Of a DNA stretch of 64,000 nucleotides, positions 3,312-19,400 are shown piece by piece. Location of the stretch: assembly GCA_015680905.1 (NCBI GenBank), contig CM027378.1, positions 53,841,501-53,905,500 of the forward strand, read 5' to 3'. The DNA is from Coptis chinensis. Taxonomy: Eukaryota; Streptophyta; Magnoliopsida; Ranunculales; Ranunculaceae. The notes under the pieces are model-generated. The model was not told the origin of the DNA and searched no databases. It saw only the letters and a program-made list of their open reading frames with translations. Position 1 is the first letter of the stretch. Each line of letters begins with the position of its first letter. Position numbers and translations under genes: made by a program.

Positions 3312-3314
3312 ATA

Positions 3315-3690
3315 GGGCGTGCTTGATAACTGATTTTCCCGCTGGCAAATCAGTCTTTTCCCACTTAACAACCTATTTGCCACTACTTGGTAGCATTTTA
3401 GGACCTGGCAAACTTTTTTGTGATTTGCCGGCAAAACAGTCACGTGACCCAATTTTCCCACTCGAAGCAGGAAAAATTTATCCATCTCAGAGATGGATAT
3501 ATTTTGCCAGAGAAAAATCGCCCAAAATTTTCCCACTTTATTTGCCAAATTGAATCAACCCTAGGTCGCAATCTCTCGTACTCACTTTCTTCTCTCATAC
3601 TCACTCTCTCTCAGGTTAGCGCCGCAACTCTCTTTTCCTCTTTCTCTTTTGATTTTTTTCAGAAAAAATTGATTTCAAGGTTTGTGTTAC
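3315..3690 (+). repeat. left arm of long imperfect terminal inverted repeat
   Basis: Besides the outer 15 or so bases, this arm shares with the right end the order: TTTGCC/GGCAAA-rich tract, AACCCTA, CTCACTCTCT-rich tract, then a segment near 3618 (GCCGC...CTTTTCCTCTTT). The similarity is patchy but collinear, so the arms are long degenerate inverted repeats rather than a short TIR alone. It includes multiple TTTGCCGG/GGCAAA words that can fold on themselves. Confidence 0.6.
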
Positions 3691-3699
3691 TCTACTGAT

Positions 3700-5890
3700 C
3701 TGTGATTTTAATAACTGTGATTTTGATTTCGCACGATTTGTAAGAAGATTGGAAGAAATATTGGTGGTGTTCCTGAATTTGCTGATCTGTTTTACCAAAG
3801 AAAGCTTAACTCTATTGAGGTAGTTTTTACTAGTTATTATAGCTTGAACTTTTTTTTTCTTGTTGTTGATCTACTTGTTGGGTGTTGACTATTTTATTTT
3901 TTATTTTTAGCTGTTAATTATTTGTTTATTTTGATTCAGACTTGATTATTTGTGTCCTGTTACTCCCCTATTAATTCTAGGAAGAATTCCTTTTTGGGGA
4001 AAAAGTAATAAATTTTAGGCAAATTTTTCAGCGAAGCTTCTTACTCTGTGCTGCCCATCAGTTTCTTCTGATGACAATCGATGGTATCCTGTGTCCAAAT
4101 CTCTGTTTGTAGATCTTAAACGTGAAGAGGTTTTTTTTTTTTTTTTTATTCAGTCGTAACAAGAGCTACAGGGCCTATTCTGTTAAAAAAAAACAAACTC
4201 GTTCCCAGTACGCAACAAGTTTTTTGTTCTTGGTGAATAGGATTTGACACCAAAAGTTTCAGTTATCTCCTTTGTATCTCCCACATTCACATAATTATCT
4301 CCTTTGTCGAGAATACTTGCACAATCGTTGAACCAACATTCCACTACAAGTTGTCCCATTGACATAGCAGAAATGGCAGCAGATTCTGGTGAACTAAGCT
4401 TCATCATTTTAGATTGGAATTAAACAAAGGGTATTTGTTGTTGTGTCAGAGAAATGTAAAGATTTAAACTTGATAAAATGATTATAATGCATTATTTGTA
4501 TGCTTTATTATGGATGGATAATATGTTTTATTATGGGTATACAATGATAGGAAACTTATAGTTGTATTAAGTGGAATTGATCTCTCTGACATATTGTGTT
4601 TTGATCTGTCGTACTCGGGTAGTTTTGAATTTTGATGACTTTGTACAAGATTGTAGCCTATAGGTTGTGTTTGTTAGGAAAATAATAGTTTCAACAACAA
4701 TGTCAGTGCGTAAAAAATGGTATAGAAAAAAGTTTGTATATTTAGCTTGGTTAAGAATGGTCGTGGTGTGGACTGTTTTGGAGGCATTATCAGTCATTCA
4801 TTTTTTCACTTACTAAATTTTATTTGGAGTGTTTGAACTTTGAAGGAGAATAATGAATGATATGAACTCTGTGGTGTGAAGTGTGGTGGAGGCTGTGAGT
4901 CTGGTAGTGTGAAGTGTGTGTCCGGTGTGGAAGTGAAGTGGTGGTGGAGGCGGAGTATATGGAGGTCCGTTTGTGGGTGGTGGAGGTCTGTGTAGTGTAG
5001 TGTAGTATGTGTGCAGTGCAGTGTAGTGTGTGTGGTGGTCTAGTGCAGGTGGTGTGAAGTGCGGAGGAGTGGTGAAGAGTGCACAGTCATGTGGTGTGAA
5101 GTGTGGAGTGGTCTGCTGCTACTGCCTCTGCTGGTGGCTGCTACTACTACTGCTGGTGGAGTTGGTGGTGGTGGTGGTGGTGGAGTTGGTGGTGGTGGCT
5201 GCTTTCGGCTGGGTGGTTATTCTTCTCTTCGCGGATCTTTGGAGTTGGTGGTGGCCGCCAGCTGCGGCTGGTGGCATCGCTATCGTGGATCTTTGGTGGA
5301 GTTGGTGGTGGGCTGCTAGCTGCCGGTGGGTGGGCATCTTTGCTCTCGTGGATCTTGCCCTCTAACTTTGCTTTCTAGGTTAGTATGTGGAAGTATGTGG
5401 GATGAGATTCAAAAGTGCGTTGAGGGAATTGATGGAAGAATGGGGTCTGACGAAGGGTGTGGAGTGCAGTTGGATAGGAATCGCGAGTTAGTACAGTGTA
5501 AATACTTGTTCAGATTGTGTTGTGTTCAGTTGATCAAACCGATGTTAGCTATTTGATTTTGGAGCTTGGCCTTACTATAGGTCCATGTCCATAGGTTTTG
5601 ATTTTGGAGCTTGGCCTTACCATAGCTATTTACATGAAAAACTTATTTTTCAGATATTGGCCACTACTGACACTTGCACTTAGACCGCACTAAGTTGTCT
5701 TGCTTTTCATGTGTACAATGGGACTCTTTGAATGCTCCTGTAGGATAGTTTGTGTGTGTGTGTGTCAGGTGGTGTGTGCTCCTGCTAGCTGCCTATGCAT
5801 GCGGCTTGTTGCTAGTCATTTCGTATATATGTATTTGTATCTCGACTTTGTGGTATTTTAGTTGTTACTTATTATTACACTTTATGAATT
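3700..5890. other. 5' non-coding part of the Harbinger element
   Basis: No domain is recognised. A 74-codon ATG frame on - (4407-4183) is uncharacterised. From 4860 to 5340 the sequence is a G/T-biased simple region (GTGTGAAGTGTGGTGG words, then GGT/GTT triplets), which creates Gly/Val/Trp-rich open frames on + that are compositional artefacts. A near-repeat of about 30 bp (TTTTGGAGCTTGGCCTTAC) occurs at 5556 and 5595. It may hold the transposase promoter. Confidence 0.45.
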
Positions 5891-5898
5891 TGTGTAGA

Positions 5899-7319
5899 AT
5901 GAGGAGAACTACACGTGAGTGTAGGGCAGTCGCGACTTTGGTGGTTGTTGTTATTGCTCAAGCTATGATGGCATACTACGATTGGTGGTATAGGATATAT
6001 ATAACTAGGCGTAGGGTTGTTAGAGCTATACAGGCACCCGTACCTAGGGCTCTGCGTAGGAATATGGATCTGCAATGGAGTGTTGTGTTGAGGAGGTTTT
6101 ATATGGACAGTGACCACTATTGTCATAACATGTTGAGGATGAATAGAGAAATGTTTCGTCGCTTTTGCCTCCATTTGCGTGGACTTGGTCTTAATGACAG
6201 CCGGTATCTGTCAGTCGAGGAGCAAGTCGCGTATTTCTTGTACACAATCGGGCATGACATGCGACAACGAAATATTGAGTTGCAATTCTTCCGCTCATGT
6301 AAAACAGTTTATCGTTATTTCCATGTGGTATTGCAAGTGGTTTTGAGGTTATATATAGAAGTGGTCAATAATGCTACCGCTGCAAACTCTCCTAAGCAGT
6401 GCTAGGAAACAAAAGAATGGCATCCGTATTTTCAGGTTAGAGAGATATATATAGAAGCATGTTGATGTCCATTCTATTAAACTTTTGACTTATAAAATTG
6501 TCGTTAACAACCATTTTTGGTTTTAGGATGCTGTGGGTGCTATTGATGGTACTCACATTGCTACCAAAGTAGATGTGGAAGACCAGGGTAGATATCGTAA
6601 TAGAAAGGTTGTCGTTAGCCAAAATGTATTGGTTGCCTGTACATTTGACATGAAGTTTACTTATGTACTTGTTGGATGGGAGGGTTCTGCCCATGATGGT
6701 CGAGTCTTGAGGAGTGTCATATCTCGCCCTGGGCACAAACTTACTCTACCCACTGGTATGTCAAGGTTTATAATTGTAATCTATCTTAGCACATAAAAAT
6801 GTCATATACTAAACTTAACATGACACCGTCCCAGGATCGAAGTACTATCTTATGGGATCTTTGGTTTTAGCGATTAGTCCCGGATTCCTCATACCCTTTC
6901 ATGGCACGCGATATCATCTCCGTGACATAGGCACAGAGGATGCTCAAGATTACAAAGAGTTGTATAATTTTAGGCATTCATTATTGCGTATGGTTGTTGA
7001 GAGAACAATCGGGTTGTTGAAGAAACGTTTTGCATGTCTTAGGCATGCCCCTCATTATGATACGAGTGTACATACAAAAGTAATCCTTGCATGTTGTGAT
7101 ATCCATAATTTCTTGAGGGAGGAAAACCCAGACAGTACGTTAACCGATGAAGAATCGAGCTCGGATGAGGAAAATGGGGATGCGGGCATTAATGAGGATG
7201 ACACTAATGGTAATGAAGACCAACAAATACCAATTGATATGGTACCTACCCACGGTTGGACAAATTGGAGAGATGCTTTGGCTTTAATGATGTGGCAAGA
7301 TACCATGGGACCACATTAA
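5899..7319 (+). pseudogene. PIF/Harbinger DDE transposase (HARBI1-like)
   Basis: Plant Harbinger-type transposase, a DDE nuclease that cuts and rejoins element ends. I read three exons: 5899-6435, 6527-6755 and 6835-7319, all with GT-AG introns and matching phases, 417 codons in total. The N-terminal exon has the helix-turn-helix region (MRREMF-like core MNREMFRRF, then YFLYTIGHD). Exon 2 starts DAVGAIDGTH, with the first catalytic Asp, and has GSAHDGRVL with the second. Exon 3 has RYHL and [13 protein letters not shown] with the catalytic Glu, so the DDE set is complete. One in-frame TAG at 6403-6405 breaks exon 1. An ATG at 5752 is also open but reads into low-complexity sequence; 5899 fits the family better. 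The C-terminus is acidic. Confidence 0.85.
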
Positions 7320-7540
7320 ATATGTGATGGTGTTTTAATTATCTTTTATAATGGATCGCGTTGTCTTTTTAATGTGAATTTTTATTAGTGAATTGGTGCT
7401 TGTATTAATTATGGTTTTTAATGGATATTGTTATCTATGAATTTGTTTAATGAATACTTATTAGAGGTTGTTAGTTATTAATGAATTTGATATTGTTTTT
7501 TTATTTCTTTGTTTGTATTTTAATGATACTTCTAACAGTT

Positions 7541-8607
7541 ATGGCTAGGCGGGCGGCCAACTCATCCAAGGGTAAGGGTGTGGTTAGTGAGGGTGAGGTG
7601 ACCAAATCACCTGTTCCCAGGTAGAAGCAAATTCGTTGGTACCCCTCAATGGATGAGATCTTAATCGAGATCTTGTTAGAAAAGACTTTAAATGGTTTAG
7701 GTAGGAAGTCAGACAATGGGTGGAAGCCCGAGACCTTAAAAGAGGTTGTTGAGGCTGTGAATCAACGATTGAATATGTCAATCGGGAATGACAATGTACG
7801 TTCTAGGCTGAAAACAATGAAGAAAGATTACCTTGCTGCCAAGGCGGCTGTCGAGGCTAGTGGTTTTGGTTTTTCGTACAACCTACAAACCAAATGTATT
7901 GATGATGATCATGTGGCATGGGAAGAGTATTGCAAGATAATATATTTTACTAACTTGTAACTCTAAATTACTTCTTATTATTACAATATCTTCTAAGCAA
8001 TTGTTTATTGTTATAGGCCCATCCTACAGCGAGGCCTCTACGAAAAAAGATGTTTCCTCATTTTGAGGAAGCTTGTATTGTATTTGGGAGTGATGTGGCA
8101 ACTGGGGAAGGGGGCAATGCTGGACACGATGATGAGGAAGTAGTGATTCTAGATGAAGAAGTTACAGATGAAGGGCCAGAGAATACAGAGGAAGAGTCAA
8201 GTCAGCCTCCAAGTCCACATCTTAATGCCAATGATGGTGATAGTTCACCTGGTGAAAGCTTTGTAGTTGGTGATTCTACACAAGCTGGTAGTCGGCGCAT
8301 TACTACCCCTTCTTTAGTGAAGCGCAAGAGGTCTCGTCTTGGTCTTGAGGCCATGCCTCCACCCCCAGATTTCAAGGAGTTAACCGACGCAGTGCATCAA
8401 CTAACTAATGCCTTCACTCCTGTTGACCCTTCCACCTTGTTAATCGCTGCTTTAGAAGAACTTCCTAACATGGAACCTGATCTCATATTGAGGGCCCTTG
8501 ATTTGTTAGTAGAGAATGAGCCCTTGCTTAAGTTCTTTTTGGGGATACGTAATCCTCAGTTGAAGTATTCGTGGCTTATAAGAAAGCTTGAGCAGTCAGG
8601 GAAGTAG
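7541..8607 (+). pseudogene. Myb/SANT-like second protein of the Harbinger element
   Basis: Harbinger elements carry a second gene whose Myb/SANT-like protein binds the element ends and helps import the transposase. Exon 1 (7541-7936) encodes a basic start, then RWYPSMDEILIEILLEK, a helix-rich trihelix-like domain with RLKTMKKDY and WEEYCK. Exon 2 (8017-8607) begins AHPTARPLRKKMFPHFEEA, followed by an acidic linker and a helical C-terminus (about 328 aa in total). Two lesions: an in-frame TAG at 7622-7624, and an intron that starts AT instead of GT after GCAAG at 7936, whereas the inverted sister copy at 12055 keeps GTAAAT. It lies 221 bp after the transposase on the same strand. Confidence 0.8.
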
Positions 8608-8787
8608 ATCGAGCAGTAGAATGTAGGCCGTTAACTTGTGTCTTTTGGATATTTTAGAATGATATTTTGAATTAGAATTCGCTATATGTATGATATTTTG
8701 AAAGGCATGCTTGTTGTCACTATGTATGTGTTTTAATTTCTATTTGTTTTACTTTTCCTGTCTTGTATTGACATTGGCATGCTAAAG

Positions 8788-8950
8788 GTTTGTTGAGTTG
8801 GGCTCCATCTTGGAGCTTGGAAGGCCGCCTAAATTGGATAAGGCTGCTATACTGAGTGATGCTGTTAGGATGGTTACCAAACTACTTGGTGAATCTGAAA
8901 AGCTGAAGGAGTCAAATGAGAGTCTTCAAGAGAAGATTAAGGAATTGAAG
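8788..8950 (+). pseudogene. captured exon of an ILR3/bHLH105-type transcription factor
   Basis: One open exon flanked by a splice acceptor-like AAAG and a donor-like AAG|GTGCAC. It reads VELGSILELGRPPKLDKAAI, then LSDAVRMVTKLL, then a coiled segment rich in E, K and L (ESNESLQEKIKELK). This is the second helix and zipper start of group IVc bHLH proteins such as ILR3, which regulate iron homeostasis. The basic region, helix 1 and the rest of the zipper are absent, so no function is expected. Intron-like flanks suggest capture from genomic DNA, not from a transcript. Confidence 0.75.
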
Positions 8951-9499
8951 GTGCACTTAAGTTATACCTTATTTGTTGCGTTAAATATCAATAGTGTTTT
9001 TCTGTTCTGCTAGATCTTAGTATGGAAAAAATGTGTTGTTCCTTTTTAGTTGTTCCAATGGCATCACTTTTTGTTTGGTAAAAAGTAAAAAAAAACCATT
9101 TGGTCAGGAATTTCTGAGGTGGTTACTCGTCACAAGCCTACAATAGTTCATGCTTCTTTGCCTTAGCTTGAATTGAATATGATTCTATAACACACCTTGA
9201 CCCAGCCATTTTTTTACCATGTTTTCAGCTCATGCTTCTTGATTGGTTTTGGGATTTGTGATAATGGCTGTGGACAGGGCATGAATACTATTTACAGTTC
9301 AACTACAAGGTGCGCTATCACATATCGAATTGTCTCGACCAATTTTTGTAAGCTTCATGAAAAACAATCTCTTCTAAATTATTGATGTCGTATTCTGATT
9401 CTAAGAATGATGAGGTGAATATTCTAAAGGTATTGACGACCTTTATTTAGGTACATCAATAGAACCAACCGATTGAGATGGAATTGCAATTGGAGATTA

Positions 9500-10107
9500 T
9501 CGGAACTCTGATAATACAAATTCCTCTTCGTTAGCGGTACAATTGAGTTGGATCATGGAGCTTTTGGAAAGCAATTTGGAAACTAAGTCGAAAATTTATA
9601 AAGACTCTGCATTGAGCTATGTGTTTTTGATTAACAATGGCAGGTACATTGTTTCAAAAGTGAAAGATGGTGAATTAGCATCACTTCTTGGAGATGATTG
9701 ATTCAAAACGTCTGATCAAGGTTCGACAAAACCATCCGAATTACCAAAAAGTTCATGGGGCGAGTTTTAGCGACATTGAAGTTGGATAATAACTCACTTG
9801 CGCCGAATGTTGTTGCTAAGTCTATGAAAGAGAAACTTAAGGTTTTCAATATGCATTTTGAAGATGTATGTAGAACTCAATCCAATTGGGTTGTCGCAGA
9901 TGAACAATTTCGAAAGCAGAGTTGAGAGTTTCGTTCTTTGGAAACTTGGCACCGGCGTATAGGAACTTCTTGGTGAGGTTTCAAACTGTTCCAGAGTTGG
10001 GGAAACATGGAGACAAGTATATCAAGTATAGTGTGGAAGACATTGAAGATATGATCAATAAGTTGTTTTAGGGAAATGGCGGAGGATCTGTTGGTGGCAG
10101 GAAATGA
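9500..10107 (+). pseudogene. EXO70 exocyst subunit 3' half, broken
   Basis: Reading across frames gives the C-terminal part of plant EXO70: SWIMELLESNLETKSKIYKD, LINNGRYIVSKVKDGELASL, KSMKEKLKVFNMHFEDVCRT, QSNWVVADEQF, LAPAYRNFLVRF and KYIKYSVEDIEDMI, ending near GGSVGGRK. EXO70 tethers secretory vesicles at the plasma membrane through this helical C-terminal region. There are several frameshifts (near 9700, 9760 and 9920) and stops, including a TAG before the last dozen codons. It lies inside the Harbinger element on the same strand as the transposase. Most EXO70 paralogues are intronless, so capture from DNA or cDNA cannot be told apart. Confidence 0.85.
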
Positions 10108-10944
10108 AATGTTGAAGCCTTGAAAGAAGCCCCTGAAGATGTTGGCTTCTTGTTGTATCATGTATCAATGTATCATGTATGCTAGTGTAATTTTCTAATT
10201 TATGTTCTAGGAAAGATGCAGTTTGTGTTGTATAATTCCATTGTATAACAGCAACAAAACTATTATTATTAACAAATAGTTGTAGAACTTTTGTTAATCT
10301 TATTTAAGTTAAATCATTTTGAGATTATTGGGTCACAATCTAAGATGACCAAATCTTGTAGTTTTCAGTTATGAAACATAAGTAACAAACCAACAAATAT
10401 TCTCATAATCTTACACATAAACTGTGCAGACAATCGTATATGTGTAAAACCACCTAAAATGTGTGAAAGAAGCAGGTGTACAGGAAATTGATAGCCATAG
10501 TATGTTTTTTTTTATAAAAACTTGTGATACTCAGACAAATATAGTACTTCTAGAAAAGTAATTAAATGTCTAGAAGAAGTAGTGAGTAACTATCAAAAAT
10601 TGCTACATGCTTGAAGCAAGCACCTCCATAAGCCATTGTGGTAATATAGCCAAACAAATGAGTTACATATGCAATAGTATGAGCTAGCTACCTTGTTGAT
10701 CAGTTCAATCCAGATTTGTATCGAAGTTTACAAATTTTCTATAACTACAAATGTTCAAGGAAGAAAAATATAACTTTTACCCTTACAATTCCTTCCTTGG
10801 GATTCTGAAGACCTACGTCCCATTAGATGAGTAAATTTTCAGTAATCAAAAGACGTCTGGTCCTCCACTTGATCAAGCACACCACCAAAGAATTAAAGAA
10901 TATGTAGAAATGGCCAACCAAGCACCAATGCTCATAAAACAAAG
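10108..10944. other. non-coding stretch within the Harbinger composite
   Basis: AT-rich; no open frame with family features. It separates the + strand captured fragments from the - strand ones and may contain the junction between two source elements, but I see no TIR here. Confidence 0.4.
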
Positions 10945-11238
10945 CTATTGCTGTATCACGAAGAGAACAAAAATAGTGAGAAGGGGGGACCATAAGCTCA
11001 TAGCAGCAGCAGTCCCATGAACACTATTGCTAGGAATACTTGTAGGAAGGGAGCACTCCTCTCCGTTAAAGAAAACCTTTGTTGGGAATCCATCACCAGC
11101 AGCGATATTACTACTAGGAGTTGCCTTTTTCGTAAATGAGATCATTGATTGCTGCTTCTCGGGCACTCGGGGATCCCTAACCGGGTTGGCTCCATCTATT
11201 TCTCCCACAAGGTAATTTAAACAAGGAAGGCCTTCCAT
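10945..11238 (-). pseudogene. captured 3' end of a COBRA-like gene
   Basis: The minus-strand frame reads [20 protein letters not shown], then [31 protein letters not shown], and ends in a hydrophobic tail ([16 protein letters not shown]). This matches the C-terminus of COBRA-like proteins of the COBL7/COBL10 group: a Cys-containing FFNGEEC segment followed by a GPI-attachment signal. COBRA-like proteins are GPI-anchored wall proteins that influence cellulose deposition. The long N-terminal part and CCVS motif are missing. Identification is from recalled pattern, so an alignment is needed. It lies opposite in strand to the transposase. Confidence 0.6.
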
Positions 11239-11383
11239 GAAAACTGAGGGAAATACAATATAGGGCTAACAACACTGAAAACTTCAATGTTTCAGCCTCT
11301 GCAGCATTCCCAACTTTAGTAAGGGACTGCAACTTCTTCACACTAGAGCCAACTGCTTCCACTTCTTTATAGTTACCGACCAA
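11239..11383 (-). other. open reading stretch of unknown origin next to the COBRA-like fragment
   Basis: A minus-strand open segment with a hydrophilic helical look (KEVEAVGSSVKKLQSLTK, then GNAAEAETLK) precedes the COBRA-like frame and is in a different frame from it. It resembles real coding sequence more than its surroundings but I do not recognise the family. It could be a further captured exon. Confidence 0.35.
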
Positions 11384-11701
11384 TGGAGATGGTAGAGTTC
11401 AACTGAGTCACTAGGCACTGCACTAAGTCACTAGGTACTGCAGCCGCCACTAATTATACTTTACTTCTCTACTAACTTCTACCAGCCATTTCAAGAACCA
11501 AAGACCAAATAGAAATAGCACCCATGCATAAAAAAACCATAACTGAAAAATTAAAGACTTTTAATAATTTAAGTCAAACACATACTAATCATGTTTTAAG
11601 TTTCTTCAACAATCGGATTGCATGAAGAATCTTATTCTAAAATATCTAAAACACATACCAAATTCAAGAATAACAAGTGCGTTCAACAGCTATGGAATAT
11701 A

Positions 11702-12378
11702 CTACCATGAATACTCCACTAAAAGGGGGGAGGAGGTAGTATCATCGACCACACCCGAGCTTTCACCGTGTCCACCAAATCTTTCACCACTCTCAACTTG
11801 TGTATCTGCTTGAACACTCTTAGCTTGTGAAGTGTCACCAAAGCTTAATAGCCCAAACCTTGCATCAACGTTGACAATATGATGTGAAAAGTCATTCTCA
11901 AATATTGCACAAGCTTCGGCAAAATGAGGAAACATCCTCTCTTAGGTGCTTATCTTTGGGATGTGCCTATAACAATAAACAGTTTCTTTTAGAAGCACAC
12001 TAGGGTTATATAACTTCTACTAATAATGTGTTACAAGATAGACAAATCATTTACCTTGAAATACACATCCCATGCTTGACGATCAGCCTCAATAACCTTG
12101 GTGTGTTGGTTGTATGCAAAACCAAACTCAGTAGTGTCGATAAGCTATTTGACATTGTTGTAATCCTTCTTCATAGTTTTAATCCTCTGATATACATGTA
12201 CATCCCCAATTGACAAGTTAAAGCGTTGATTCAAAACCTTAGCCGCCTCTTTTAAGGTCCCGATGTCAAACCTATTCCTTGACGTTCCACCAGTACCATT
12301 TGGAGACTTCTCCAACAACACTTGAATCAGGATGTCATCCATCATCAGAGACCAACGGGTGTGTTGCAGACCTGCCAT
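11702..12378 (-). pseudogene. second Myb/SANT-like Harbinger gene, inverted
   Basis: Homologue of the + strand gene at 7541-8607, in opposite orientation. Exon 1 runs from ATG at 12378 to 12055 (RWSLMMDDILIQVLLEK, RIKTMKKDY, FGFAYN, WDVYFK) with a TAG soon after the KDY motif near 12142; the donor GTAAAT is intact. Exon 2 runs from 11966 to 11702, starting AHPKDKHLRERMFPHFAEAC and ending with a short divergent tail, without the long acidic C-terminus of the + strand copy. Its strand and its place close to the right TIR suggest it came with a different Harbinger copy, whose transposase is not present. Confidence 0.75.
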
Positions 12379-12399
12379 AACTATGAAAATAAACTGGGT

Positions 12400-12890
12400 T
12401 GGAAACATTAGACAGATTCTGCCTGATAAATTGATAATATAAAGACATGCATAAAAGAATCTAGCCAGAAATCATGAGGATCTATGTTGTTTATACAGTA
12501 TAGTAACCACAACTATGAGATTCATGCAACTATCAAGTATATATAAGGATATAAGTTAGATAAAGAAAATATTAAGATGTCAAATCCTATAACAAATGAA
12601 CGACCATTCGACCGGTAGATATCTAGAAGAGAGTTGATTGACACTTTATAATAAGTCATTATGTTGACTAGTACAACAATCATAAGATATTGACAAAAGC
12701 AGTAAAGCTAAACAAGAAGAACTTTGAGGTGTAACAGTCTCATTAATATTAAAGCACATTTTCATCTATGGTAAGTAATAAATTTCACAATGTATAACAG
12801 AACTAATTATTAATATACTTCACACCTGTTACAGAAATCGTTAAGCATTTAATATTAGGAAAAAAAAAAACGAAATTGAATTGAATGAGA
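12400..12890. other. non-coding stretch before the right arm
   Basis: AT-rich sequence without open frames of interest; probably the promoter side of the inverted Myb/SANT-like gene. Confidence 0.4.
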
Positions 12891-12899
12891 AATGAAGAG

Positions 12900-13220
12900 A
12901 GGGAGACAAGTAACCTTGATTCGAATTAAAAGAGGAAAAGGGCGGCTACCTTGAGAGAGAGAGAATACAGAGGAGAGAGTGAGAGAAGTAAATTTATATT
13001 AGGGTTAAAAATATTTGCCGAATTTGCCGGCAAATTTTTTTGGGTTATCAAGCACCGACAAACTTGCAAATCCCATTTGCCAACATTTGCCTCTCGACGA
13101 AACAAGCAGCGGCAAATAGTTAGTTTCCTGCTGGTAATTTGTCGGCAAATTTTTAAGTGCGAAAATATTTTCCCTCTTTCATATTTGCCAAGCATGTGGG
13201 AAAACTTATCAAGCAGACCC
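12900..13220 (-). repeat. right arm of long imperfect terminal inverted repeat
   Basis: Read on -, this starts GGGTCTGCTTGATAAG, continues with TTTGCC/GGCAAAT-rich words, AACCCTAATA, a CTCTCACTCTCTCC tract, then CTCTCAAGGTAGCCGCCC and CTTTTCCTCTTTT, the same order as the left arm at 3315-3690. It is followed on + by the ATA duplication at 13221-13223. Confidence 0.65.
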
Positions 13221-13305
13221 ATAGTGTTCAAAATTTGTGTAGACAAGGTGTTTGATAAAATTTCGAAGTGAAATTTTTTCTGGGTTATTGTGTGTAACTT
13301 GAAAA

Positions 13306-14050
13306 ATGGCTCTCAAAATGTCAAATGCTAGGTTTGAAGTAGATAAATTTAATGAGAAGAATAACGTTGGGATTTAGTAAGTTCAAGTAAATGACATTCT
13401 CATCCAACAAGGTTTGCACAAGGCTTTAAAGGGGATTAAATCAAAGGCGGCGAACGTAAATGATGATGATTGGGAAGAGTTCGATCTACATGCTTGTTCA
13501 TCAATCTGATTGTGTCTTGCAAATGAGGTTATGTATAATGTGATGGGAGAAAATACTGCTGCCGATATTTGGCTCAAGCTAGAATCTATGTATATGACCA
13601 AGAGCATGACGAACAAGATGTATCTTAAGAAGTGTCTTTATCGGTACATGATGGTAGATGGTTCAACGATGCAAGAGCACATTAGTGAGTTCCGTCGACG
13701 CCTCGCGAATTATTTGAATGTTGGCATGAAAATGGATGATGAGGATCAAGCGGTATGTTTAATATTCTCTTTGCTCGAGAGCTATGAGCATCTAATGACT
13801 ACTTTTATGAACAGAGAAGATGTTGATCTCGACGAAGTTTAAAGTGTGCTTCTTTCTTATGAGTTGATGAAGAAGATACAAGTTAAGAATAACATTGATG
13901 CAGGTCAGGGGCTAGTGGCAAGAGGAAGGTCGTATGAAAATGTCTCTACAAGCAATGAAAGGTTTAGGTCAAAGTCAAAGAAGTCGTTGAAATATGTAAA
14001 GTGCTACAATTGCGAAGAAAAATGACATTATACAAATAATTGTCTTCACC
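13306..14050 (+). pseudogene. Ty1/copia (copia-A) gag, decayed
   Basis: Gag capsid of copia type (UBN2-like). From ATG 13306 it reads MALKMSNARFEVDKF, then ADIWLKLESMYMTKSM, YRYMMVDGSTMQEHISEFRR and DEDQAVCLIFSLLESYEHLM, all hallmark segments of the family, and ends in a CCHC zinc knuckle (CYNCEEK-HYTNNC) whose glycine codon is now TGA near 14020. There are two adjacent stops near 13375, one near 13509 and another near 13840. Gag would package element RNA in a cytoplasmic particle; here it is dead. Protease, integrase and RT do not follow, because the element is replaced by other sequence after about 14055. Confidence 0.85.
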
Positions 14051-14054
14051 CGAA

Positions 14055-14764
14055 GAATGAGTGACTTCGGATCGGATAAAAGGTTTTTGGAAAAATTTAT
14101 AATTTTTTTCGGATGAGAATATCCTTTCCAAATCCGATCCAATTATTTTTCGGATGACAATTTTTTTTCCGAATTCAAAAAGTTCGGAAAAATCAGAAAA
14201 TTTTCAAAAATTCAGAATCCGCAAAATATGGAAGTAAATCATAAATTTGAATTATATAATCGGATTCTCTTTTAGAATAACTATTTTTTACTCAATTAAT
14301 ACATTCATTTAGCAAACATTTTGAAATGTATTAATTCAGTAATAAATAACTTAAACCTTTAAATATGTTCATTCAATAAGTTTTTTCTTCATGTTAATGC
14401 ATTGATATAGTAAATAAGAAGATTGGAGAAATTGAGACATATACTAGAATGACAATATTGATTTCTTAAAGTTGTGAGAGAGACAATGTTCTACTTCTTT
14501 AGGATTTTTATTTGGTTTGTAAAGTATCTGTAGTTTTAATTTAGTAACTATATGAAATAGACCGCTATATGTTAAAAATTCAGAAATTAATAGAAAATCA
14601 GATCGAATTGGATTTTGAAAACACATCCAATCCCGATCAAATTATTTTTCGGAAAAATCAGATGTCCAAATTTCAGATATGGGAACACAAATATGATGGC
14701 CAAATTCGAAAAAATATTGGATTGGAATTGGGAAAAATTGGGTTTTCATAAAAAATGGCACCCC
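14055..14764. mobile_element. hAT-like non-autonomous fragment
   Basis: AT-rich block dense in CGGAT/ATCCG and TTCGGAAAA words. The right end, read on -, starts TAGGGGTGCCATTTTTTATG, which resembles common plant hAT ends (TAGGGGTG). The matching left end is absent: the block begins abruptly inside copia-A sequence near 14055. So it is probably truncated or an inverted remnant. No 8-bp duplication can be checked. Confidence 0.4.
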
Positions 14765-16456: not shown

Positions 16457-19400
16457 ATGGACATCCTATTCGCACAGATCCAAGCCGATCTCCGCTCAAA
16501 CGACGCATTACGTCAATCAGGAGCCCTCTTACAAGCCCTCCAACAATCCGCAGCCGGACGTGACATATCAATAATAGCCAAATCCGCATGCGAAGAAATA
16601 GTTGCCTCACCCGCATCCGCCGTATGTAAAAAACTAGCATTCGATTTAATCCGGTCCACTCGTCTCACATCAGACTTATGGGAAACCGTCTGTACTGGTG
16701 TCCGTCTCGATTTTGACTTCCCTGACCCAGACGTAACTGCAGCTGCCGTCTCAATCTTAGCCGCGGTCCCGTCCCACCGTCTCGGTAAATTAATAACTGA
16801 TTGCAGTAAAGAGATTAGTAACTGTTTTGATTCCAATAGTGATAATTTGAGATACTCTATTACTGAGACACTTGGGTGTATTTTAGCTAGGGATGATTTG
16901 GTAATTTTGTGTGAGAATAATGTTAGTTTGTTAGAGAAAGTGTCTAATTGGTGGAAAAGAATAGGTGGGAATATGTTGGATAGGTCTGATGCCGTGGCCA
17001 AAGTGGCCGTTGAGTCGGTGGGGAGATTGTTTCAAGAATTTGATAGTAAAAGGATGAGTAGATTAGCTGGGGATAAGTTGGTCGATAGTGAGAATTCGTT
17101 GGCGATTAGATCAAGTTGGGTTGCGTGGATGGTGGATTTCGTTTGGAAGAAGAGGAATTTTTTGATTGCTAGGAGTTTGATATTACCGATCGAGAGTTTT
17201 AGAGTTACGGTTTTCCCACTTGTTTATGCTGTTAAGACTGTCGCGTCCGGTGCGGTTGAGGTTTTTAGGAAGCTTTCGAAGAATGGGAATGTGGAGGTTT
17301 TGGAGTCTGGGAATAATGCGGAGAAGCTTGTGGGTGTTTCGGATGTGGTTACGCATTTGGCGCCGTTTTTGGCCTCGTTGGATCCAGCTTTGATTTTTGA
17401 AGTTGGGATTAATATGTTGTATTTGGCTGATGTTCCTGGTGGTAAGCCTGAGTGGGCTTCGGCGTCTATTACGGCGATTCTTACACTTTGGGATAGGCAA
17501 GAGTTTTCTTCTGCTAGAGAAACGATTGTCAGGGCTGTTGTTACAAATTTACACCTACTCGATCTTCATATGCAGGTTCTCACATTTCCCGACTTTTTAT
17601 ATTTCTAACGTTCAAATGCATTTATAAGCATATCTTTAACATTCGAACACATTTATATGAATTCTATGTGGGTCATTTGTTGACCATTTAACAAAAAAAA
17701 GTGTATATACATAAGAGACAATTTTGTTATAATGAAGATATGCACTTCTTCAAAGTATTTATAATGAAGACTGGTGCTACTCAAGTTAAAGGGCATGCTT
17801 TATTTAACAGAAAATGTCACAATGCCAACTGAGCCTTTAATTGTGATATATGGACTGTATGTTTCTACCATTTGTTGATTATGGTTCTTTGCAATATTTT
17901 CATGAGTCCAGTAGACAATCATGACTATCCTTTCGGCTTAGATTCTCCTTGGGGCTGTATAGTACCTGTCTTTGAAAACGTATATAGTCGTCATTTGAGG
18001 AATGAGCAAGACAAGAAAGGGTGACTGTGTAGGTAGGATAGATTGATGTGTTCCAATGGCTAAAGCTCTGCCAGCATCTTGTAGACTGGCAGTCTCCGAG
18101 TTTTATTTGCTTATAGAAAGCGCACATCTCGGAAAGGGGGACTTGTGGTATTCTTTGTATATTGTAGTATTTTATTAGCACCTTACTAAGAGGATGATCA
18201 TCAGCTCAACAATTGTGTTTCTTATTTGTTTACGACCATAGTTTATTATTAATTTCTTTGTTTAGTAGCCCCTTAGGATCTTGTATATTTTCCACTAAAA
18301 TTTTCACACTTGGTAATTCCTCAAAATATTCATACCTTGTCCAGGCAGAAAATCTGTAGTTCATTTATTTATTATAAGCTTCTACTATTTCCTTCTAGTT
18401 CGAAACTTGACAAAATCATCATTCTTATTTTCACCATGTAGCCGACACGACAATTCTGTGAACCAGTTGTTGATAAAGTATGTTTTACTATTTTTTTTTA
18501 ATCTCTCCATCCTATCCTAGAATGTGATGATCCCCACATTACGACAAACTTGCTTCTGTCTGCCAGTTGTATACTGAGTTACTATTTAGGTGCAATCAGG
18601 TACCATTTTACCGTACTGAACTTGATCAACTCCAAACTTGCTGCAGTTTAGTCTTTTTCTCTCTATGTATACATAGATGTGTATGATCGTTATGTATTTA
18701 TGTGATATATGATTGGCCAACCTATACAATGTACACAACTTTTAGTGTTAATATTTTTCAATACCGCAAGATAATGGCATCATAGGTTTTCCTAGTACAA
18801 TCTAAAGAAAAAAAAAAAGAAGCTAGAGAAACTAGCTAAATAAGAATCGTTCACTTTAGTAACTTAGCCTTGCCTATTTTTTGGGTGATGATGTAATTTC
18901 TTTAATTAATATCAATATAATGCAATTTACTGATAGATCAATAAATGAATAACTAGAACTTATTGAGGTACTACCCCAGACTTTAGCTCTTCATTTCTCA
19001 GTTTTGTGTCTGAAGTTGTAGAGGACTTGGTAATTCTTGCCATGGACAGATGTTAATTACAATTGTAGAGATGAAGTTGAATACAACCACTTAACACATA
19101 TGTTCTACCTGTAGGTTTCCTTGTTTAAGAGGTTACTTCATATGGTCAGAAATTTGAGAGCAGAATCAGATCGTATGCATGCTCTTGCATGTATTTGCCG
19201 AACAGCTTTATGTGTTGATCTTTTTGCAAAGGAGAGCGTTCGAAGAGGCCAGAAACCCCTCCTGAAAACTGATATTGCCTCGCTATTTGAGGATGTGAGG
19301 ATAAGAGATGATCTACATAGTGCAACAACGAAAAGTTTATTTAGAGAGGAGCTGGTAGCATCACTTGTGGAAAGTTGTTTTCAGTTATCTCTTCCATTGC

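Follow-up and report, generated by a model that had tools for sequence, protein, structure and literature searches.

We analysed a 64,000-nucleotide stretch of the Coptis chinensis genome (C2:53841501-53905500, hereafter the window), which contains a PIF/Harbinger transposon of 9,906 bp, at 3315-13220, inserted into the leader-gag region of a copia element. The Harbinger element is real, precisely bounded and present twice in the 935.6-Mb assembly (116 contigs) that we searched, and it carries pieces of three host genes, a bHLH, an EXO70 and a COBRA-like gene. Elements of this kind are known, and the patchwork is unusually readable here: because relatives free of the pieces, the donors and the captured copies share one assembly, the joints can be placed to the base and fusion can be compared directly with gap filling. 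As far as can be judged from the DNA, the patchwork is probably explained by internal gap repair with template switching, which we favour over fusion of neighbouring insertions because the islands of the element's own sequence keep their native order, the joints have short overlaps, and internal terminal repeats are absent from them.

Fragments of the three host genes within one Harbinger unit had been proposed in a sequence-only reading of the window, and the genome search confirms them. Each piece has a single best donor locus, on C9, C8 and C5 respectively, at 94-95% identity (Table 1), which supports gap repair. A search with 8690-10160 gave 15 matches, comprising the window, a copy on C3, the C9 bHLH locus, the C8 EXO70 locus and 11 matches confined to the 178-bp own-element island, in whole or in part. 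With 10140-11760, a single COBRA locus on C5 (94%) was found for 10512-11241, plus an adjoining 30-bp repeat; the remaining matches were the rest of EXO70 on C8, element DNA and short repeats. The bHLH, EXO70 and COBRA pieces are thus not repeats, since outside both element copies each matches one locus at length. The C8 donor exhibits an open frame of 633 codons (stop to stop) with Exo70_N and Exo70_C (E 2e-119 for Exo70_C), and in the C5 donor stretch COBRA and COB_C lie in a frame of 366 codons; the COBRA C-terminal domain is also recognised in the window, on the minus strand at 11238-10945 (E 8.9e-23). The Pfam matches of the bHLH piece are weak and below the cut-off in the window (best bHLH model E 0.0086), as are those of the two exon pieces at the C9 locus (best HLH E 0.0019, below the curated cut-off), but in DNA the piece is 95% identical to the host locus. 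One bHLH exon and the last coding part of the COBRA piece still have open frames, and the EXO70 piece is gapped relative to its donor. As the EXO70 piece extends past the stop codon of the donor frame and the bHLH piece begins at an apparent intron (split HLH match, and by eye), the captured pieces were most likely copied from DNA and not from spliced RNA.

A fourth captured piece, at 12455-12907, was not listed in the earlier reading. Besides the window and the C3 copy, the only matches found were a C7 locus (87%) and scattered pieces at C7:20.03 Mb, and the C7 locus may be a mere relative of the true source.

The second genomic copy with the same ends and captured segments, which the earlier reading had proposed to look for, lies at C3:114521743-114531142. 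It is flanked by TTA on both sides, and its flanks are unlike those of the window, which rules out a larger segmental duplication as its source. The region corresponding to 8696-13227 is present at about 94% identity with the same inserts, and 3313-5888 is matched by pieces at 86-97% identity, plus some insertions of its own, whereas the transposase and the first Myb gene (5889-8695) are missing. Because the same inserts stand at a second site with its own TTA duplication and different flanks, the ends and the captured DNA moved as one unit, and since the second copy carries the same patchwork, assembly of the patchwork by chance is excluded. In having gene fragments that lie between terminal repeats and moved as a unit, the element resembles Pack-TYPE elements.

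In the C3 copy, the missing region stops precisely at the TGAA where element and bHLH meet (J1; stretch L017 near 5164-5170; window 5885-5888 and 8699-8702), and the same bHLH edge therefore adjoins two different left partners in the two copies. We considered that the left halves of the two copies come from different elements, which would account for this end point; the distances are star-like, mostly 2-6%, and do not decide the matter.

Between the captured gene pieces, the element repeatedly returns to its own sequence. In C1_34, a relative where none of the bHLH, EXO70 and COBRA pieces was found, DNA collinear with the islands of 178, 42 and 30 bp is present, and another relative, C4_26, exhibits the first island and 35 bp of the second. 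The third island ends in an element-to-element joint, CTAAC, at which the window lacks 520 bp present in C1_34; this stretch may have been lost in the lineage of the window copy or gained by C1_34.

The joints were compared with the donors and with elements lacking the pieces (C1_34, C4_93 and C2_28), and the overlaps were read by eye with no preset list. TGAA is shared at the entry into bHLH and ACT at the exit, AT at the entry into EXO70 and GA at the exit. The entry into COBRA has no overlap and about five extra T, and the exit from COBRA (J5) has one A if an adjoining base change is allowed and otherwise none. Random joining of the same sequences would give an overlap of at least 2 bp in 17-18% of cases; such overlaps occur at four of the six gene joints (P 0.011), and the overlaps total 12 bp, where 4.35 would be expected (P 0.008, or P 0.017 with J5 scored 0). 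Six joints of pieces captured by relatives, described below, gave a similar picture, with overlaps of 2 and 0 at the left and right of an OPT piece, 2 between this piece and a second filler, 7 at the right of that filler, and 2 and 0 at the left and right of a DUF2985 piece (sum 13, P 0.004). For all 12 family joints, the sum is 25 against 8.67 expected (P 0.00015, or P 0.0002 with J5 scored 0). Overlaps of at least 2 bp at 8 of the 12 joints read correspond to the microhomology typical of gap-filling Pack-TIRs. Within the element, no forward terminal repeat was found at up to 4 mismatches, and three reverse look-alikes (10870, 11742 and 13045) lie at none of the joints.

Based on these observations, we suggest the following course of events. 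An element copy would have suffered internal breaks or gaps, either during excision or where a fork stalled, and the repair strands would have switched to unrelated genes, mostly at 1-4 bp of shared sequence. After 0.6-1 kb of gene DNA had been copied, synthesis would have switched back to an element copy, and the patched element could then have been mobilised by transposase from other family members.

Several points weigh against this interpretation. Short overlaps also result from end joining that traps DNA fragments, and copying in place is unproved. No window donor lies on a contig that carries an element copy (donors on C9, C8, C5 and C7; element on C2 and C3), so the window donors do not exhibit the same-chromosome bias of gap filling; in the animal Pack-TIRs (PMC8277862), donors are often on the same chromosome. 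In the relatives, the OPT donor and the second filler are each on the contig of one carrying copy. With regard to the joints, three of the 12 read have no overlap (COBRA left, OPT right and DUF2985 right), and one has 1 bp only if the adjacent base change is allowed. A strict automatic count failed at J1, J2 and J3 owing to nearby point differences, and the overlaps there are those read by eye. Neither joint of the fourth piece was readable, and adding both as 0 raises P to 0.0008.

The strongest competitor, which we regard as rather unlikely, is that a broken element was sealed by microhomology-mediated or non-homologous end joining, which trapped existing fragments without copying in place. 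This would leave the same joint signature, short or no overlaps and the T-run insertion, and it agrees with the fact that the donor loci persist in the genome, with long open frames in the case of EXO70 and COBRA. Nevertheless, the return to native order after each filler and the short islands are explained more simply by an element copy serving as template.

Tandem-insertion fusion (as modelled by Catoni 2019 and by Gisby and Catoni 2022), in which two nearby related elements are used as one via their outer ends and carry along the host DNA between them, does yield elements with host DNA inside. PMC8903248 puts it forward for every DNA superfamily, PIF among them, and gives statistics on local PIF insertions in maize. 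Simple fusion requires the captured genes to be neighbours, and the donors lie on the separate contigs C9, C8 and C5; nor would fusion of whole elements be expected to leave in-register islands of 30-42 bp. With unlinked donors, islands in register and no internal terminal repeats at the joints, two-element fusion was rejected as highly improbable. The description of the element as a Pack-PIF composite holds for the host-gene pieces in one unit and is not supported if two fused elements are meant, as the element's own segments keep the order of the relatives and no internal repeats mark the joints.

Separate later insertions of the pieces, each with its own duplication, were named in the earlier reading as the refuting case and can be dismissed almost entirely: no target duplication was seen where the three gene pieces join the element (six joints), the second copy has the same sequence at J2 to J5 and on the right of J1, and none of the three pieces is a repeat.

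Returning to gap repair with template switching, the divergence of the pieces from their donors bears on when they were captured. Counted over aligned sites as differences from the donor common to both element copies, it amounts to 14/595 for bHLH (2.35%), 25/971 for EXO70 (2.57%), 12/714 for COBRA (1.68%) and 17/427 for the C7 piece, with no significant difference by chi-square among the first three (P 0.46) or all four (P 0.12). Between the window and C3 copies, the divergence is 3.3-4.1%. These values fit a capture of the pieces within one period before the copies parted, one event and several not being told apart by divergence. It is possible, although on balance unlikely, that all four pieces derive from one repair episode of serial template switching between the element and loci on four other contigs, and that genes are captured again and again in the stretch between the two Myb genes. 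If this were true, one PIF family would repeatedly build new mixtures of unlinked genes.

The family comprises at least 42 matches to the left 591 bp and at least 41 to the right 325 bp. We compared 11 paired-end copies besides the window (16 stretches; 3.6 to 19 kb between the ends) and four stretches with a left end only. By eye, 8 of the 11 other copies exhibit the same triplet at both ends (four TAA, three TTA and one TTT), and the ends of C6_29, C9_40 and C1_34 are damaged or not clear. Copies C4_93, C2_48, C2_28, C8_58 and C1_34 are built alike: the transposase is followed by Myb/SANT gene 1, an interval, a second Myb/SANT gene in the opposite orientation, and the right-end region. The second Myb/SANT gene is present in 7 of the 11 paired copies.

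Internal gene capture recurs in this family. The scan of the relatives covered 20 open frames picked by eye from a longer list, six of which gave no match. An OPT transporter piece is present in three copies (C8_58, C4_26 and C7_5.7), and a C4 locus with an open frame matching OPT is 97% identical to it. Copy C8_58 also holds a 728-bp filler that matches C8:89626604 onward at 99.2% identity, overlaps by 7 bp at its right joint, and is probably a very recent capture. A DUF2985 piece occurs at five places near listed element ends, with an 89% locus on C7, and an O-FucT piece at six, of which four were paired with family ends; for the O-FucT piece, no close donor was found in the genome (best 71%). 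Placed on the C1_34 copy, the OPT and COBRA captures start at most 8 bp apart, and the gaps to their right end at most 8 bp apart (element positions about 10280-10295 and 10832-10840), a coincidence that may reflect a break hotspot or a shared intermediate. Frames with a GRF-type zinc ribbon and a CCHC knuckle lie behind Myb 1 in several copies (L021:9091-9837, L023:6702-7250 and L036:190-552), and may represent an own gene or an old capture.

The sequence-only reading had taken gene capture to be much rarer for PIF/Harbinger than for Pack-MULEs and Helitrons and the element to be possibly under-described, which is too strong, as PIF elements with captured genes are already in print, from grapevine in 2008 and from maize and rice in 2022. 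Like the present element, Pifvine-3 of grapevine (PMC2528002) contains long host stretches resembling exons and introns, some of them common to several copies. There the host DNA occupies an extended 5' region (up to 3.5 kb), whereas here the pieces lie behind the transposase and the first Myb gene, with islands parting the gene pieces and joints placed to the base. Zm-Pack-PIF cluster 18 of maize, in the account given in PMC8903248, likewise has PIF ends around gene fragments and was multiplied by transposition; it averages 535 bp, with gene pieces of 163 and 58 bp, and is ascribed to fusion of neighbouring insertions, which does not fit the Coptis element. In the literature searched, 'Pack-PIF' appears as a term in one paper, PMC8903248. 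The animal gap-filling/FoSTeST Pack-TIRs, as outlined in PMC8277862, resemble the present case in having filler inside the element, microhomology at the joints (median 2 bp) and multicopy cases that transposed later. That paper, which describes the process in animals, leaves plant Pack-MULEs open and calls a test there worth exploring. A 2026 review (PMC13317346) still allows that unlinked fragments arise by an undiscovered mechanism, and PMC10288884 reports that PIF/Pong excision sites in yeast are repaired by homology. In the literature searched, whose coverage was limited, most subscription journals lying outside it, we saw no description of a PIF element in which several unlinked gene pieces take turns with islands of its own sequence. 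How cut-and-paste transposons acquire unlinked genes is unsettled, and the present element is valuable because one joint after another speaks for gap filling with template switching in this plant PIF family.

With regard to its own genes, the window element exhibits two DDE_Tnp_4 matches beyond the curated cut-off (E 5.9e-8 and 5.3e-9), as expected of PIF/Harbinger, and the accompanying gene of this superfamily is represented by Myb_DNA-bind_3 at 7649-7960 (E 3.1e-14). The second Myb/SANT-like gene, which the earlier reading did not name, has Myb_DNA-bind_3 at 12408-12145 on the minus strand (E 9.8e-8). The two Myb genes share about 68-73% DNA identity, and the second comprises two lineages about 22% apart. 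As TAG stops interrupt the transposase and Myb 1 frames, present movement of the window copy would probably need proteins from elsewhere; the C3 copy lacks this region altogether. Since transposase and Myb sequence is retained, albeit with stops in the frames, the window element, judged by its coding content, is probably no strict Pack element.

The borders of the element are well fixed. Inverted-repeat ends with ATA on either side had been claimed, and both were found; the ends GGGCGTGCTTGATAA (from 3315) and TTATCAAGCAGACCC (up to 13220) differ by two mismatches. Terminal inverted repeats and a 3-bp duplication are typical of PIF/Harbinger, in which the triplet is usually TAA or TTA, so that ATA is unusual. 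The right-hand copia flank is repetitive, and a search with it listed at least 41 matches including the window itself (40 of 954 candidates scored); six copia copies were chosen from the 40 others listed, and their upstream part was retrieved. All six are uninterrupted at the insertion point, with a single ATA, which agrees with the proposed rejoining of the copia flanks and provides the empty site; the base adjoining ATA differs in three of them.

Table 1. Features of the Harbinger element and of its insertion site (window coordinates).
Feature	Position	Strand	Remark
Left target site duplication ATA, in copia leader	3312-3314	no strand	
Left terminal inverted repeat GGGCGTGCTTGATAA	3315-3329	+	also in family copies
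Transposase region, DDE_Tnp_4 in two exon pieces, start approximate	5902-7319	+	in-frame TAG 6403-6405
Myb/SANT-like gene 1, bounds approximate	7541-8607	+	in-frame TAG ~7622
Captured bHLH piece	8699-9304	+	donor C9:66935642-66936244, 95%
Own-element island, 178 bp	9302-9479	+	complete at 7 more family places, not counting the C3 copy
Captured EXO70 3' end and downstream DNA	9478-10466	+	donor C8:96964165-96965149, 94-95%
Own-element island, 42 bp	10465-10506	+	identical to C1:34348070-34348029
Captured COBRA-like 3' gene end and flank	10512-11241	-	donor C5:70872606-70873340, 94%
Own-element island, 30 bp (C1:34348021-34347992), then element-to-element joint CTAAC (11266-11270)	11241-11270	+	
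Second Myb/SANT-like gene, divergent, own to the family	11702-12408	-	
Fourth captured piece, no gene named	12455-12907	+	like C7:20210346-20210783, 87%
Right terminal inverted repeat	13206-13220	-	
Right target site duplication ATA	13221-13223	no strand	
Copia leader and gag, resumption of the interrupted copia	13224-14060	+	

Outside the element, the window exhibits at 16457-17608 an open frame of 383 amino acids without a Pfam match, which we take to resemble the start of the endocytosis gene TPLATE.

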